From: Phycisphaeraceae bacterium
GTDB lineage: Bacteria; Planctomycetota; Phycisphaerae; Phycisphaerales; Zrk34
Reading direction: 5' to 3'
Length of the DNA: 34,897 nt
Assembly: GCA_028282685.1 (NCBI GenBank)
Contig: JANQHK010000138.1
Coordinates: forward strand, 1 to 34,897
The position numbers and the translations under genes were made by a program. Each line of letters starts with the position of its first letter. Positions within the stretch are counted from its first letter, which is position 1. The notes under the pieces are model-generated. The model searched no databases and was not told where the DNA came from. It worked only from the letters and a program-made list of their open reading frames with translations. Positions 28,011-34,039 of this stretch are shown here, piece after piece.

Positions 28011-28043
28011 ACCTGGGGTGTCATCAAGAGGCAGAGCTGGAAT

Positions 28044-28074
28044 AAAAAAACGCTCTGCTGAAAAGCGGAGCGTT
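28044..28074 (-). terminator. Rho-independent terminator of tracrRNA
   Basis: On the minus strand AACGCTC (28074-28068) pairs with GAGCGTT (28055-28049); GCT/AGC pair inside after one C.A mismatch, with a TTTC loop. A run of T follows (plus-strand A run at 28044-28050). Confidence 0.9.
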
Positions 28075-28119
28075 AAACGGGTACCTTGCGGTTACCGTGC
28101 GCGAACGAAAGTTCCAATA

Positions 28120-28155
28120 CTGTGATTAGCAGAACAATCGCCGCTCAGATACACT
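28120..28155 (-). repeat. Anti-repeat within tracrRNA
   Basis: The first 17 nt (AGTGTATCTGAGCGGCG) are identical to the array repeat as written on the plus strand. The remaining 19 nt keep GTTCTG and CACAG but differ at wobble-compatible sites. The middle is closer to repeat variant B than to variant A. Confidence 0.93.
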
Positions 28156-28161
28156 ATTCGC

Positions 28162-28199: not shown

Positions 28200-30125
28200 A
28201 TGGGCGAACACGCAACTCAATGGGTATTGGGCCTCGATATCGGAACCTCCTCGATCGGCTGGGCCGCCATTGCGATAACCCGGGACAAGTCCGGGTCGGT
28301 CATGGAAATCGGGGTAAGAATATTCGAGGCGGGGGTTGAAGGCGACATTGAACACGGCAAAGACGGTTCGCGCGCCATACCCCGCCGAGACGCCCGTCAG
28401 CAACGGCGACAGATTCGCCGTCGCCGGCAGCGGGATCGACGCGTTTTTAATCTGTTACGACACGCCGGCCTGTTACCCGATCCCGGTTCCAGTACGCCGA
28501 CCGCCCGACATGATTGCATCAATGCACTGGATGCAAAGCTGCGAACTGCATACCTAAAAGATGGCGATCGGATTGGCCACCACCTCCTGCCCTATCGGCT
28601 GCGGGCTAAAGCTGTCGAAGGAACCGTCGAACCGCATGCTTTGGGACGGGCGTTGTATCACCTGCCTCAGCGACGGGGTTTCAAGTCCAATCGCAGGACG
28701 GATCGGACTGACAAAGCGGACGAACGGTCCAAAGTCAAGAAAGCCATCAGCCAGCTCGAGCAAGACATGGGAGAGATGACGCTGGGACAGTATTTTACCA
28801 CCCTTGATCCCGATGAGCAGCGTATCCGCAAGCGGTGGACAAGCCGAGCGATGTACGAAGACGAATACGATCGGATACGTGCGGCACAGGAAAAGCACCA
28901 TCCGGCATTGCCGACTTCTTTCTGGGATGAGTTGAAGGAAGCGATATTTCATCAACGTGATTTGAAATCGCAATCCCATCTCATCGGACGATGTTCGTTG
29001 GAGCCGAATCGACGTCGCGTCCCTGTCGCCCTGCCTTCATACCAGCGATTCCGTTTGCTGCAGAAACTTAACGACCTATCCATTGTCGCACCCACAGGCC
29101 GACACGAGGAACTGACCGCTGAGCAACGGACCACATTGCTGGATTCCCTGCAACGCGAGGGGGACTTGAAGTTCAACGATGCACGCAAACTCCTCAAACT
29201 GGATGTACGGGCCAAGCAGGACCGCAAACAATCGGCAAACCCCAAAGCCAAGTTGTCACTGTTCAAGTACACCTTCAGCCACGAAGGTGACGGCGACCAG
29301 AAGTTGATCGGTAATCGCACCGCAGCGAAAGTCGCTCCTTGCTTTGGTGAACACTGGGTCGAGTTGGCGGTGGAAGAGCAGGATGCCGTTGTGAACGACT
29401 TATTGCACTACGAACATCGCGCGGCGCTGATTCGACGGTTACAATCGGCATGGCGAGTCGATCCCGGCAACGCCGCGCAGTTGGCCGACATCGGGCTGGA
29501 ACTGGAAGACGGCTACGGATCGCTTTCACGCCAGGCCATCGCACGACTTCTGCCCCATCTGGAACAGGGAGTGCCGTTTGCAACGGCTCGACAACAAGAA
29601 TATCCGCAGTCGTTTGAGGCCGTAGAGCCAGAGGATTTCCTTCCGCCCGTTTTGGATTGGCGTGATGATGTGAACAATCCCGCCGTGATTCGCGCCATGA
29701 CGGAACTGCGAAAAGTCGTGAATGAACTGATTCGTCAGTACGGCAAGCCGGAAAAGGTGCGGATTGAATTGGCCCGTGATCTGAAACGCTCGCGCAAGGA
29801 TCGTAAAACGCTGTCAGACCAAATCGAGCGTAACCGCAAGAAACGTGATAAAGCCAAAAAACGTATCTTCGATGAACTGCATATCGACAACGACAATCCC
29901 TCCCCGGACGATATTCTGAAAATTATTCTCGCGGATGAATGCAATTGGATTTGTCCTTACACCGGGCGGGGGCCATTTCGGATGCGGGAATTGATTGGTT
30001 CGCAGTCGCAGTACGACATCGAGCACATTTTCCCGCGTAAATATCTGGACAACACGTACCTGAACCTCACGCTGTGTTATCACGAAGAAAACCGCAACCG
30101 CAAAAAAGACCAACTGCCTTTCTAG
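28200..30125 (+). CDS. cas9: Cas9 N-terminal part (RuvC-I, bridge helix, REC, RuvC-II, HNH)
   Basis: If termination occurs at the TAG, a 641-residue product results. It contains RuvC-I (VLGLDIGTSSIGW, catalytic D13), the Arg-rich bridge helix (about 62-81), the recognition lobe (about 90-510), RuvC-II (KVRIELARDL, catalytic E523) and the HNH core (CPYTGR, then YDIEHIFPR with H609, then EENRNRKKD with N631). It lacks RuvC-III and the PAM-interacting domain, so it should not be a working nuclease by itself, although guide binding by the recognition lobe is conceivable. Confidence 0.8.
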   Translation: MGEHATQWVLGLDIGTSSIGWAAIAITRDKSGSVMEIGVRIFEAGVEGDIEHGKDGSRAIPRRDARQQRRQIRRRRQRDRRVFNLLRHAGLLPDPGSSTPTARHDCINALDAKLRTAYLKDGDRIGHHLLPYRLRAKAVEGTVEPHALGRALYHLPQRRGFKSNRRTDRTDKADERSKVKKAISQLEQDMGEMTLGQYFTTLDPDEQRIRKRWTSRAMYEDEYDRIRAAQEKHHPALPTSFWDELKEAIFHQRDLKSQSHLIGRCSLEPNRRRVPVALPSYQRFRLLQKLNDLSIVAPTGRHEELTAEQRTTLLDSLQREGDLKFNDARKLLKLDVRAKQDRKQSANPKAKLSLFKYTFSHEGDGDQKLIGNRTAAKVAPCFGEHWVELAVEEQDAVVNDLLHYEHRAALIRRLQSAWRVDPGNAAQLADIGLELEDGYGSLSRQAIARLLPHLEQGVPFATARQQEYPQSFEAVEPEDFLPPVLDWRDDVNNPAVIRAMTELRKVVNELIRQYGKPEKVRIELARDLKRSRKDRKTLSDQIERNRKKRDKAKKRIFDELHIDNDNPSPDDILKIILADECNWICPYTGRGPFRMRELIGSQSQYDIEHIFPRKYLDNTYLNLTLCYHEENRNRKKDQLPF

Positions 30126-30161
30126 GCCTACGGCGCGGATGAGAACCGCTGGGCTGAGATC

Positions 30162-31418
30162 ATGGCTCGGGTGGAGGCCTTCAAGGGCGATGCCGCGGCG
30201 ATTAAGCTCGAGCGATTTCAAATGCAGGAAGTGCCGGATGGGTTCACTGAACGCCATCTGGCCGACACCCGTTACAACAGTCGACTCGCAGCCGACTACC
30301 TCGCGCTCCTGTTTGGCGGCCGTGACGACGCAAGCGGCACGAAGCGTGTGGAAACGCGCCCGGGGATGCTCACCGACCGGCTACGCAAGACGTGGCATAT
30401 CCATGGCCTGAAAAAGCGCGGCATCAATCACCTGCATCATGCCGTGGACGCCGTGGTGGTGGCGTTGACCGATCAAGGCACGGTATCGCAGTTGTCCCGT
30501 GAGGCAGCGCGGCAGAACGCTACAAACCGGCAACACGTTGCGATCGACATGCCCTGGGAGGGCTTCGCGGAGGAAGTTCGGGAGAAACTCGAAAACATCA
30601 TTGTCTCCCATCGCCCCAATCGCCGTCTTGCCGGCCCCCTGCACGCTGAGACGATCTACTCCAAATCGCACGGCTCGGTTAAGGGCAAAGAAGTGCGGCA
30701 TATCCGCAAACCGCTGCACAAACTCAGCAAGGCCGATATCCGCAGCGACGAGAAAATCGTCGATCCCGCCGTGCGTGATAGCGTTCGCCAAAAATGGGAG
30801 GCGCTGGGTGGAGGGGAACCCGCTCAGGTGTTTGCCGAGCCGGCCAATCATCCCTATATGAAATCAAACAGCAAGAAGAAATCGAAAGACGGTCAGGATC
30901 GGGCCATTCCCATCCACAAAGTGCGCGTTCGCATTAACGATTCCATCAAAACCGTTGGCGAAGCACACCGTCTTCGCCACGTGGCCTCAGGTAAAAACAC
31001 CAACCATCACACGGTGATCGTTGCCAGGCGGACGCCACGAGGCGAAAAATGGCGTGATGAACCGGTCAGCCGTCTGGAAGCGCATCGCCGTCTGCGCGAT
31101 AAGAAATCCGTTGTCCAATTGCAATGGGGTCCCGGTGAACAGGCCGTGATGGTTTTGTACAAGGGCGATGCCATTGAGATGGATACGCTTGATGGGAAAC
31201 GAACCATTTACATTGTCCAGAGTGTTTCCAAGCGGGACATCATGCTCAAGCGGCACGATGACGCCCGCCTGAAAAAGGACATCCCTCGCAGCGAAGGTCA
31301 AGATCGCCGCATCACATCGGCGGACACTTTCCGCAAAAGGAAAGCGCGGAAAGTGACGATATCTCCCTTGGGCAAGGTCAGCCCCGAGGGGATACCCGAT
31401 GCGTCACCGCATCCTTGA
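30162..31418 (+). CDS. cas9: Cas9 C-terminal part (RuvC-III, PAM-interacting domain)
   Basis: The same frame continues after the TAG, and the first ATG is at 30162, 12 codons downstream. It would yield 418 residues starting MARVEAFKGD. It contains FTERHLADTRYNSRLAADYL, RuvC-III (NHLHHAVDAVVVAL, with H747 and D750 in read-through numbering) and the basic C-terminal domain used for PAM recognition in this family. No strong ribosome site precedes the ATG, so re-initiation would be weak; this half may be unexpressed, or joined to the first by stop-codon read-through. Its stop overlaps the cas1 start by 20 bp, which keeps the operon layout of a normal cas9. Confidence 0.65.
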   Translation: MARVEAFKGDAAAIKLERFQMQEVPDGFTERHLADTRYNSRLAADYLALLFGGRDDASGTKRVETRPGMLTDRLRKTWHIHGLKKRGINHLHHAVDAVVVALTDQGTVSQLSREAARQNATNRQHVAIDMPWEGFAEEVREKLENIIVSHRPNRRLAGPLHAETIYSKSHGSVKGKEVRHIRKPLHKLSKADIRSDEKIVDPAVRDSVRQKWEALGGGEPAQVFAEPANHPYMKSNSKKKSKDGQDRAIPIHKVRVRINDSIKTVGEAHRLRHVASGKNTNHHTVIVARRTPRGEKWRDEPVSRLEAHRRLRDKKSVVQLQWGPGEQAVMVLYKGDAIEMDTLDGKRTIYIVQSVSKRDIMLKRHDDARLKKDIPRSEGQDRRITSADTFRKRKARKVTISPLGKVSPEGIPDASPHP

Positions 31419-32295
31419 TATCGCTGAACAGGCCGCTGGGCTTAAGGTGCGCCATGGCGCACTTGAAATCCGTCTCGATCAGGACGGCCCTTGCCCGGCG
31501 CTGATCCCGTTCGATGAAATCGCTGTCATCATCGCGGCACATCGACAAATCCACTGCACACGCTCGGTCCTCAGTGAGTTAAGTCGTGCAGGCGGCCTTT
31601 TCATCGTCTGCGATGATAAACACCTGCCTGTCGGCATGATGCTGCCATTGAACGGACATCATGTCATTGCCGAGCGTATCGCCCTCCAGGCATCCGCATC
31701 CAAACCCACCTGCAAACGCCTGTGGCAGCAAATCGTGCGTGCCAAGATCAACGCACAGGCCCAGGCGTTGTTGGAAATCCGGAACGATGATTTCGGTCTG
31801 AAGCGGCTTTTGGCCTTGGTTCGCAGCGGTGATCCGGACAACATCGAAGCCCGCGCGGCTCGTACCTATTGGCCGGCTCTGTTTGACGATCCTCGGTTTC
31901 TGCGACGCCGGGAAAAAGAGGACCAGAACCGGCTTCTGAATTATGGATACGCCGTGCTTCGGGCATTAACCGCCCGTGCGATTTGTGCTGCGGGATTGCA
32001 GCCGTGCCTGGGTATCCACCATCACAATCGGTACAACCCATTCAATCTTGCGGATGATCTGATGGAGCCCTTTCGACCCAGAGTGGATCTGGCAGTTGTC
32101 CGTATTGTCCTCGAACGGGGAGCGAGTGCATCCTTGGATGCACAAACAAAGCAACAGTTAATTGAGCCCTTAATGGCCGGTCTGCAGTGGGATCAAGAGC
32201 AAAGACAGCTTGCTGATGTGTTGGCGAGGATTGCGAATCAGTTGGTTGAGGTGTTTGCCGGTCGGGAACGAAGACTGCATTGGCCGAAATGGTGA
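31399..32295 (+). CDS. cas1: Cas1, CRISPR integrase (type II)
   Basis: Cas1 is the metal-dependent integrase that, with Cas2, inserts new spacers at the leader end of the array. The 298-residue product has the N-terminal beta domain (LKVRHGALEIRLD and on) and the C-terminal catalytic domain, with E150 in DNIEARAARTYWPAL and the second motif GIHHHNRYNPFNLADDLMEPFRP supplying His and Asp. It overlaps the end of cas9 by 20 bp and is followed after 3 bp by cas2, so all three should be translated from one mRNA. The frame is undamaged, so adaptation genes are intact even though cas9 is broken. Confidence 0.96.
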   Translation: MRHRILDIAEQAAGLKVRHGALEIRLDQDGPCPALIPFDEIAVIIAAHRQIHCTRSVLSELSRAGGLFIVCDDKHLPVGMMLPLNGHHVIAERIALQASASKPTCKRLWQQIVRAKINAQAQALLEIRNDDFGLKRLLALVRSGDPDNIEARAARTYWPALFDDPRFLRRREKEDQNRLLNYGYAVLRALTARAICAAGLQPCLGIHHHNRYNPFNLADDLMEPFRPRVDLAVVRIVLERGASASLDAQTKQQLIEPLMAGLQWDQEQRQLADVLARIANQLVEVFAGRERRLHWPKW

Positions 32296-32298
32296 ATC

Positions 32299-32643
32299 AT
32301 GCCGGGCCGTCGAAACATTCCATCGAGTTTTAAGGCGATGTGGTTATTCGTTATGTTTGATTTACCGGTGAAGACGCGGAAAGAGAGGAAAACCTATACC
32401 CGGTTTCGATCCAACCTGCTCGCGGAGGGGTTTTCCATGTTACAATTCTCCGTGTATGCTCGATACTGTCCCAGCGAGGAATCGGCCGCGAGCCATCGGC
32501 GGCATATCCGCCAATGGATGCCTGGTAAGGGACAGGTGAGAATTCTGTCCGTGACGGAACACCAATTCTCCAAAATGGAGATACATTTTGGAAAAAAACG
32601 ACATCAGGCAGAGCAACCACCACAGCAACTCACGCTTTTTTAA
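32299..32643 (+). CDS. cas2: Cas2, CRISPR adaptation protein
   Basis: Cas2 forms the dimer at the centre of the Cas1-Cas2 integrase. The 114-residue product has the beta1 signature WLFVMFDLPVKTRKER with the conserved Asp, then YTRFRSNLLAEGFSMLQFSVYARYC and RILSVTEHQF, as in type II Cas2. ATG 32299 lies 3 bp after the cas1 stop. The end, PPQQLTLF, is a short tail beyond the ferredoxin fold. The first array repeat begins 51 bp downstream. No csn2 or cas4 follows, which places the locus in subtype II-C. Confidence 0.95.
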   Translation: MPGRRNIPSSFKAMWLFVMFDLPVKTRKERKTYTRFRSNLLAEGFSMLQFSVYARYCPSEESAASHRRHIRQWMPGKGQVRILSVTEHQFSKMEIHFGKKRHQAEQPPQQLTLF

Positions 32644-32693: not shown

Positions 32694-34039
32694 AGTGTAT
32701 CTGAGCGGCGAGTCCTAGCCAACCACAGCTGCGCTGGGCGGACCTGCGCAGGGCGGACCAGTGTATCTGAGCGGCGAGTCCTAGCCAACCACAGCTGTCG
32801 CCGACCAGTGTAAGATAATCCACTACAGTGTATCTGAGCGGCGAGTCCTAGCCAACCACAGCCAGCGGTTTGTCTCGTCAGCCAAGTCCAGTAGTGTATC
32901 TGAGCGGCGAGTCCTAGCCAACCACAGCTATCGCTGATGTGTGCGAGCAGTTCGGCGAAGTGTATCTGAGCGGCGAGTCCTAGCCAACCACAGCCCGTGT
33001 AGCTGCGTCGCCCACTCCGGTATCAGTGTATCTGAGCGGCGAGTCCTAGCCAACCACAGCTCCCGCTCTAATGCGAGGCGTAATGATGCAGAGTGTATCT
33101 GAGCGGCGAGTCCTAGCCAACCACAGCGAGGAGGGCGGCGAAAAGGCGGACCTGTGCAGTGTATCTGAGCGGCGAGTCCTAGCCAACCACAGCTGGCCAG
33201 ATAGCACAGTACACTATCGGCAGAGTGTATCTGAGCGGCGAGTCCTAGCCAACCACAGCGAACACCGTTGGTCCATCATCGACGATGCTAGTGTATCTGA
33301 GCGGCGAGTCCTAGCCAACCACAGCTCTTTTCGCCGCCGACATAGTGTATCTGAGCGGCGAGTCCTAGCCAACCACAGCCGGCGACGACCTGTTCGTCCA
33401 TCAGATTCCAGTGTATCTGAGCGGCGAGTCCTAGCCAACCACAGCCATCGGCCGCGTGCTGCCCCGATACGTTGTAGTGTATCTGAGCGGCGAGTCCTAG
33501 CCAACCACAGCGCAAACTCATAGGCATCGAGCCATCTATCGAGTGTATCTGAGCGGCGAGTTCTGGCCAACCACAGCTCCATCGGAACACGAATCAACTT
33601 GTCCTCGAGTGTATCTGAGCGGCGAGTTCTGGCCAACCACAGCTCCATCAGGGAGATTTGGTCCGGCGTGATCAGTGTATCTGAGCGGCGAGTTCTGGCC
33701 AACCACAGCCAGCACGACCATGGCGCACTACTCGCCGTGAGTGTATCTGAGCGGCGAGTTCTGGCCAACCACAGCATGCAGCGCGGTGGCCTTCCTCGGC
33801 CATCGAGTGTATCTGAGCGGCGAGTTCTGGCCAACCACAGCCCACTGACCGCTGGCGTGGTTGTATGTAATAGTGTATCTGAGCGGCGAGTTCTGGCCAA
33901 CCACAGCACCAGATGGTCCGGGCAGTTTCCACCGTTGAGTGTATCTGAGCGGCGAGTTCTGGCCAACCACAGCACAATCGCGGCCTGGTGTACATGCCGA
34001 TCTAGTGTATCTGAGCGGCGAGTCCTAGCCAACCACAGC
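32694..34039 (-). CRISPR. Type II-C CRISPR array, 21 repeats and 20 spacers
   Basis: Repeats are 36 nt, starting AGTGTATCTGAGCGGCG on the plus strand and ending AACCACAGC. Spacers are 30 nt, except two of 31 (32796-32826 and 33061-33091) and one of only 18 (33326-33343). Repeats 1-13 and 21 are variant A (GTCCTAGCC); repeats 14-20 (33542-33973) are variant B (GTTCTGGCC). No repeat is degenerate at either end. The tracrRNA anti-repeat shows that crRNAs are read from the minus strand, opposite to the cas genes. In that orientation the repeat is GCTGTGGTTGG and on to CAGATACACT, holding TTGGCT, 17 bp, TACACT: a possible promoter in every repeat, as known in Neisseria meningitidis. Confidence 0.98.

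Follow-up and report, generated by a model that had tools for sequence, protein, structure and literature searches.

The cas9 gene of a type II-C CRISPR-Cas locus is located on the forward strand of the window (the whole stretch of 34,897 nt that was analyzed). Its frame opens with an ATG at 28200 and encodes 641 residues before it meets an in-frame TAG at codon 642 (30123–30125); behind the TAG, 430 further cas9 residues follow in the same frame up to the natural TGA (31416–31418), where the gene overlaps cas1. Based on Pfam and on the positions matched in the NCBI Cas9 model TIGR01865, the 5′ part (28200–30125; model positions 2–630) was found to carry RuvC-I, the alpha-helical lobe, RuvC-II and HNH, and the 3′ part (30126–31418; model positions 653–1070) RuvC-III and the C-terminal PAM-interacting region, which is left untranslated unless the stop is bypassed. 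When the frame was read through the stop, TIGR01865 matched residues 9–1059 with 656.9 bits, and both the RuvC and the HNH domains of a type II-C Cas9 were present. The Pfam match HNH_4 covers residues 585–641 and RuvC_III begins at 677 (677–810), so the stop falls directly after the HNH match, at the end of that domain. The catalytic-site matches D13 (GLDIG), E523 (IELARD), H609 (DIEHIFP) and H747/D750 (HHAVDA) are kept, and none of the five residues varied when nine relatives were aligned with the sequence. Translation of the 3.2 kb of cas9 revealed the TAG as the sole lesion, with no frameshift and no second stop. The initial annotation, made from the letters of the sequence, had described a single amber codon just after the HNH site, with Cas9 sequence on both sides and every RuvC and HNH catalytic residue present, and the translation, the Pfam match and the alignment confirmed that description. 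With RuvC-III and the PAM-interacting region missing, the 641-residue product should be inactive on its own.

The remainder of the locus, which the same annotation had taken to be intact, was borne out by domain matches, duplex energy and the repeats of the array. Intact type II cas1 (31399–32295; TIGR03639, Cas1_II) and cas2 (32299–32643; Cas2_II) genes lie on the same strand as cas9, and neither csn2 nor cas4 was found in the operon. A tracrRNA with an anti-repeat (28156–28118), hairpins and an intrinsic terminator (approximately 28074–28044) was predicted at 28043–28156 on the strand opposite cas9, although Rfam at gathering thresholds did not report it. The predicted tracrRNA:repeat duplex reached −58.6 kcal/mol, compared with −25.5 ± 3.1 kcal/mol for shuffled tracrRNA. 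The CRISPR array (32694–34039; 21 repeats of 36 bp and 20 spacers) comes straight after cas2, without another cas gene in between, and its crRNA sense is likely the minus strand, given the pairing of anti-repeat and repeat and the terminator of the predicted tracrRNA. The spacers measured 30–31 bp (or about 30–32 bp), with one exception of 18–19 bp (33326–33344), which suggests an internal deletion. Seven consecutive repeats (33543–33973) carry TTCTGG, and the repeats to either side carry TCCTAG. No spacer of this array matched the phage records.

To place codon 642 among its homologs, the gene was compared with 109 Cas9 relatives, 102 of them near full length, which came from related genomes and from GTDB contigs, two sets that partly contain the same genomes, as with L008 and L115. 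The aligned codon was GAG in 45 and GAA in 34 of the 109, and a recurrent stop at this position was rejected, as none of the 109 carried one. In a 93-row alignment, Glu occupied the position in 76 rows and Gln in four, and the stop was seen in the present cas9 only. With this many relatives compared, a stop in the place of the usual Glu is more than chance alignment noise, and one substitution from a Glu codon is the simplest origin of the TAG. An alignment-based search returned 80 relatives at 30–46% identity, and a single-protein search of genome contigs and viral contigs found none closer. Since the nearest relatives are only ∼45% identical and none belongs to the same genus, no direct ancestral codon can be read.

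Internal in-frame stops were observed in 3 of the 102 near-full-length relatives, or ∼3% (95% interval 0.6 to 8.4%): a TAA at codon 424 in L020 (nucleotide 1978), a TAG at 708 in L024 (2313), and two stops at 711 and 843 in L093 (5065 and 5458). These sites do not coincide with one another and are unrelated to codon 642, and in all three loci cas1 was still readable downstream of the broken cas9. No internal stop was found in 89 cas1 genes of the relatives, a difference from cas9 that the shorter length of cas1 could explain. L008 and L115, apparently one genome, show an early frame change in cas9.

The TAG may also be a wrong consensus base, or the base of a minority strain, in a draft metagenome-like assembly, in which case the cas9 of the population would be intact. 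The genome is in 157 contigs, and the catalytic residues, the tracrRNA, the array and the rest of the locus look functional. However, the site does not lie in a homopolymer, the remaining genes with family support that were checked, in the window and two other stretches, proved intact, and a substitution error that produces exactly a stop is a rare event. A wrong consensus base is regarded as the main rival reading, though a rather unlikely one.

Whether TAG ends translation in this organism was deduced from the genome itself. Among 24 genes examined, the stop codon was TGA in 14, TAA in seven and TAG in three, the last being the GNAT gene (5561), a znuC-like ABC gene (8968) and one gene elsewhere in the genome. 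The prfA gene for release factor 1 (RF1) is an intact frame of 357 amino acids on contig C39. None of 43 tRNAs (placed by Rfam, with anticodons named by ARAGORN) had a CUA anticodon, in a list that is not quite complete as it includes no Asn tRNA. The search for pyrrolysyl-tRNA synthetase (PylS) reached at best 19.4 bits, far below the cut-off of 178, with no pyrrolysine system recognized by this measure; the search is able to detect PylS, since 1 of 14 control genomes passed the cut-off. A recoding of TAG was therefore rejected: RF1 is intact, TAG ends genes, and neither a CUA tRNA nor PylS above the cut-off was seen. The 100 bases 3′ of the stop folded little better than shuffles (z −0.8), which gives no read-through signal. 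The first in-frame ATG past the stop (30162; Met655) lies 36 bases downstream and has no Shine-Dalgarno sequence before it, whereas at least a partial one precedes each of cas9, cas1, cas2 and glnA. Taken together, RF1, the use of TAG and the lack of a CUA tRNA, PylS, downstream structure and a Shine-Dalgarno sequence lead us to expect that translation terminates at 30123.

These results also bear on what the initial annotation had proposed. Its statement that TAG ends the GNAT gene and znuC was correct, and its view that TAG is not reassigned held as far as it could be tested. Its four options, among which it did not choose, were recent inactivation, suppression or read-through, a two-piece Cas9, and a sequencing error; the first fits all the data, the second and third found no support, the suppressor tRNA that it had advised looking for being absent from the 43 tRNAs found, and the fourth, a consensus error, keeps some probability. 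Basal UAG read-through occurs generally in bacteria and the downstream frame is fully kept, so that a leaky stop with near-cognate read-through might yield a little full-length Cas9 and weak immunity. Given the tRNA and PylS results (the tRNA list without Asn), the unremarkable structure of the RNA past the stop and the absence of a stop at 642 from every relative, this is considered improbable. Likewise, it is very doubtful that the stop has been retained for a purpose, with partial read-through or a restart at Met655 providing Cas9 at a low dose or in two pieces; no evidence was found for a functional role of the stop. Least credible is a Cas9 in two pieces, in which a C-terminal piece with RuvC-III and the PAM-interacting region, restarted at Met655, joins the 641-residue piece: the ATG is in frame, the break coincides with a domain boundary and engineered SpCas9 has been split and rejoined with intein fusions at certain sites, including 713 and 1153 (PMC5063958), but the restart lacks a Shine-Dalgarno sequence and no other Cas9 is divided here, so that selection for a split is not apparent.

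The stop is likely recent, within loose bounds, because no second lesion has accumulated. About 41 (41.3) new stops would be expected downstream of the TAG per substitution per site, so that finding none limits the neutral divergence only to ∼0.07 (3/41.3), a weak upper limit on age. The parts before and after the stop differed by 0.055 in their identity to the relatives, comparable to the 0.063 ± 0.018 of other sequences. Of 34 conserved downstream columns, 31 were kept, which is near the low end of the range of the relatives, yet inside it.

Two further CRISPR loci were found in the same genome. A complete type I-C operon, cas3-cas5-cas8c-cas7-cas4-cas1-cas2, lies on contig C69 (L088:4127–13614) together with an array of its own (26 repeats), and with this system present the loss of Cas9 could be tolerated. 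At the start of contig C4 (L062:1–620), an array with eight copies of the repeat GCCGTATCGACCGACGCGGTCTTGATCGATGGACAC lies at the contig end, and no cas genes were recognized in the adjoining 6 kb. One of its spacers resembles spacer 17 of the II-C array (33776–33806) with three differences, which are spaced by multiples of three and are synonymous in one reading frame; the two arrays, whose repeats differ, appear to hold a record of related variants of a single gene. When the viral contigs were scanned with a degenerate pattern of spacer 17, no match was obtained. A self-targeting spacer was rejected as the reason for Cas9 loss, as the best genomic match, that of spacer 17, was the spacer in the contig C4 array and not a gene, and self-targeting of any gene by the II-C array was not found.

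The probable explanation is therefore an ordinary, fairly recent nonsense inactivation of cas9, with the rest of the II-C locus intact; the frame is intact apart from one stop, at a codon that is a sense codon in the relatives. One substitution would have turned a Glu codon (less likely a Gln codon) at the HNH end into TAG, and RF1 would stop translation there, leaving a fragment of 641 residues that has neither the third RuvC motif nor the PAM-reading C-terminal region. Such a fragment would neither find nor cut targets, so the locus would be dead for interference, with cas1, cas2, the tracrRNA and the array unchanged; loss of its RNA-guided cleavage through the TAG is predicted. Type II adaptation uses Cas9, as known from II-A work, and spacer uptake is for that reason probably impaired as well. 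The loss of cas9 would be recent enough for no second lesion to have arisen, and could be tolerated thanks to the type I-C system.

Natural loss of cas9 through a single stop is already known, and the present case belongs with such ordinary gene disruptions or may reflect an assembly error. In Mycoplasma gallisepticum, four natural truncated forms of MgCas9 (V1–V4) have been described, two of which arose by single-base changes, GAA to TAA and CAG to TAG (PMC11893278). There, too, a natural single-base nonsense change inactivates cas9, and the array and mostly cas1/cas2 persist; however, that case comprises a dated population series in which the change spreads, with stops in REC or PI, whereas here one draft genome carries a stop after HNH alongside a second CRISPR system (PMC11893278). 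In Mycoplasma arthritidis, an interrupted cas9 likewise ends at UAG with the array kept, but the stop was made by a frameshift and a self-targeting spacer accompanies the broken gene and offers a reason for it (PMC6882279), whereas no self-targeting of a gene was found here. The II-C-like loci of Planctomycetota and related MAGs (L003–L010, L089–L095) hold the same kind of Cas9 at 38–45% identity, with mostly Glu at 642, but most of their cas9 frames are uninterrupted. If the stop is real, this would add to the CRISPR-Cas9 loci that a single base has silenced while leaving the tracrRNA and the memory stored in the array untouched; the host has another CRISPR system besides, and one reversion could restore the locus. 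It would also serve as a caution that an annotation by gene content would class such a locus as type II even though it is not expected to function.
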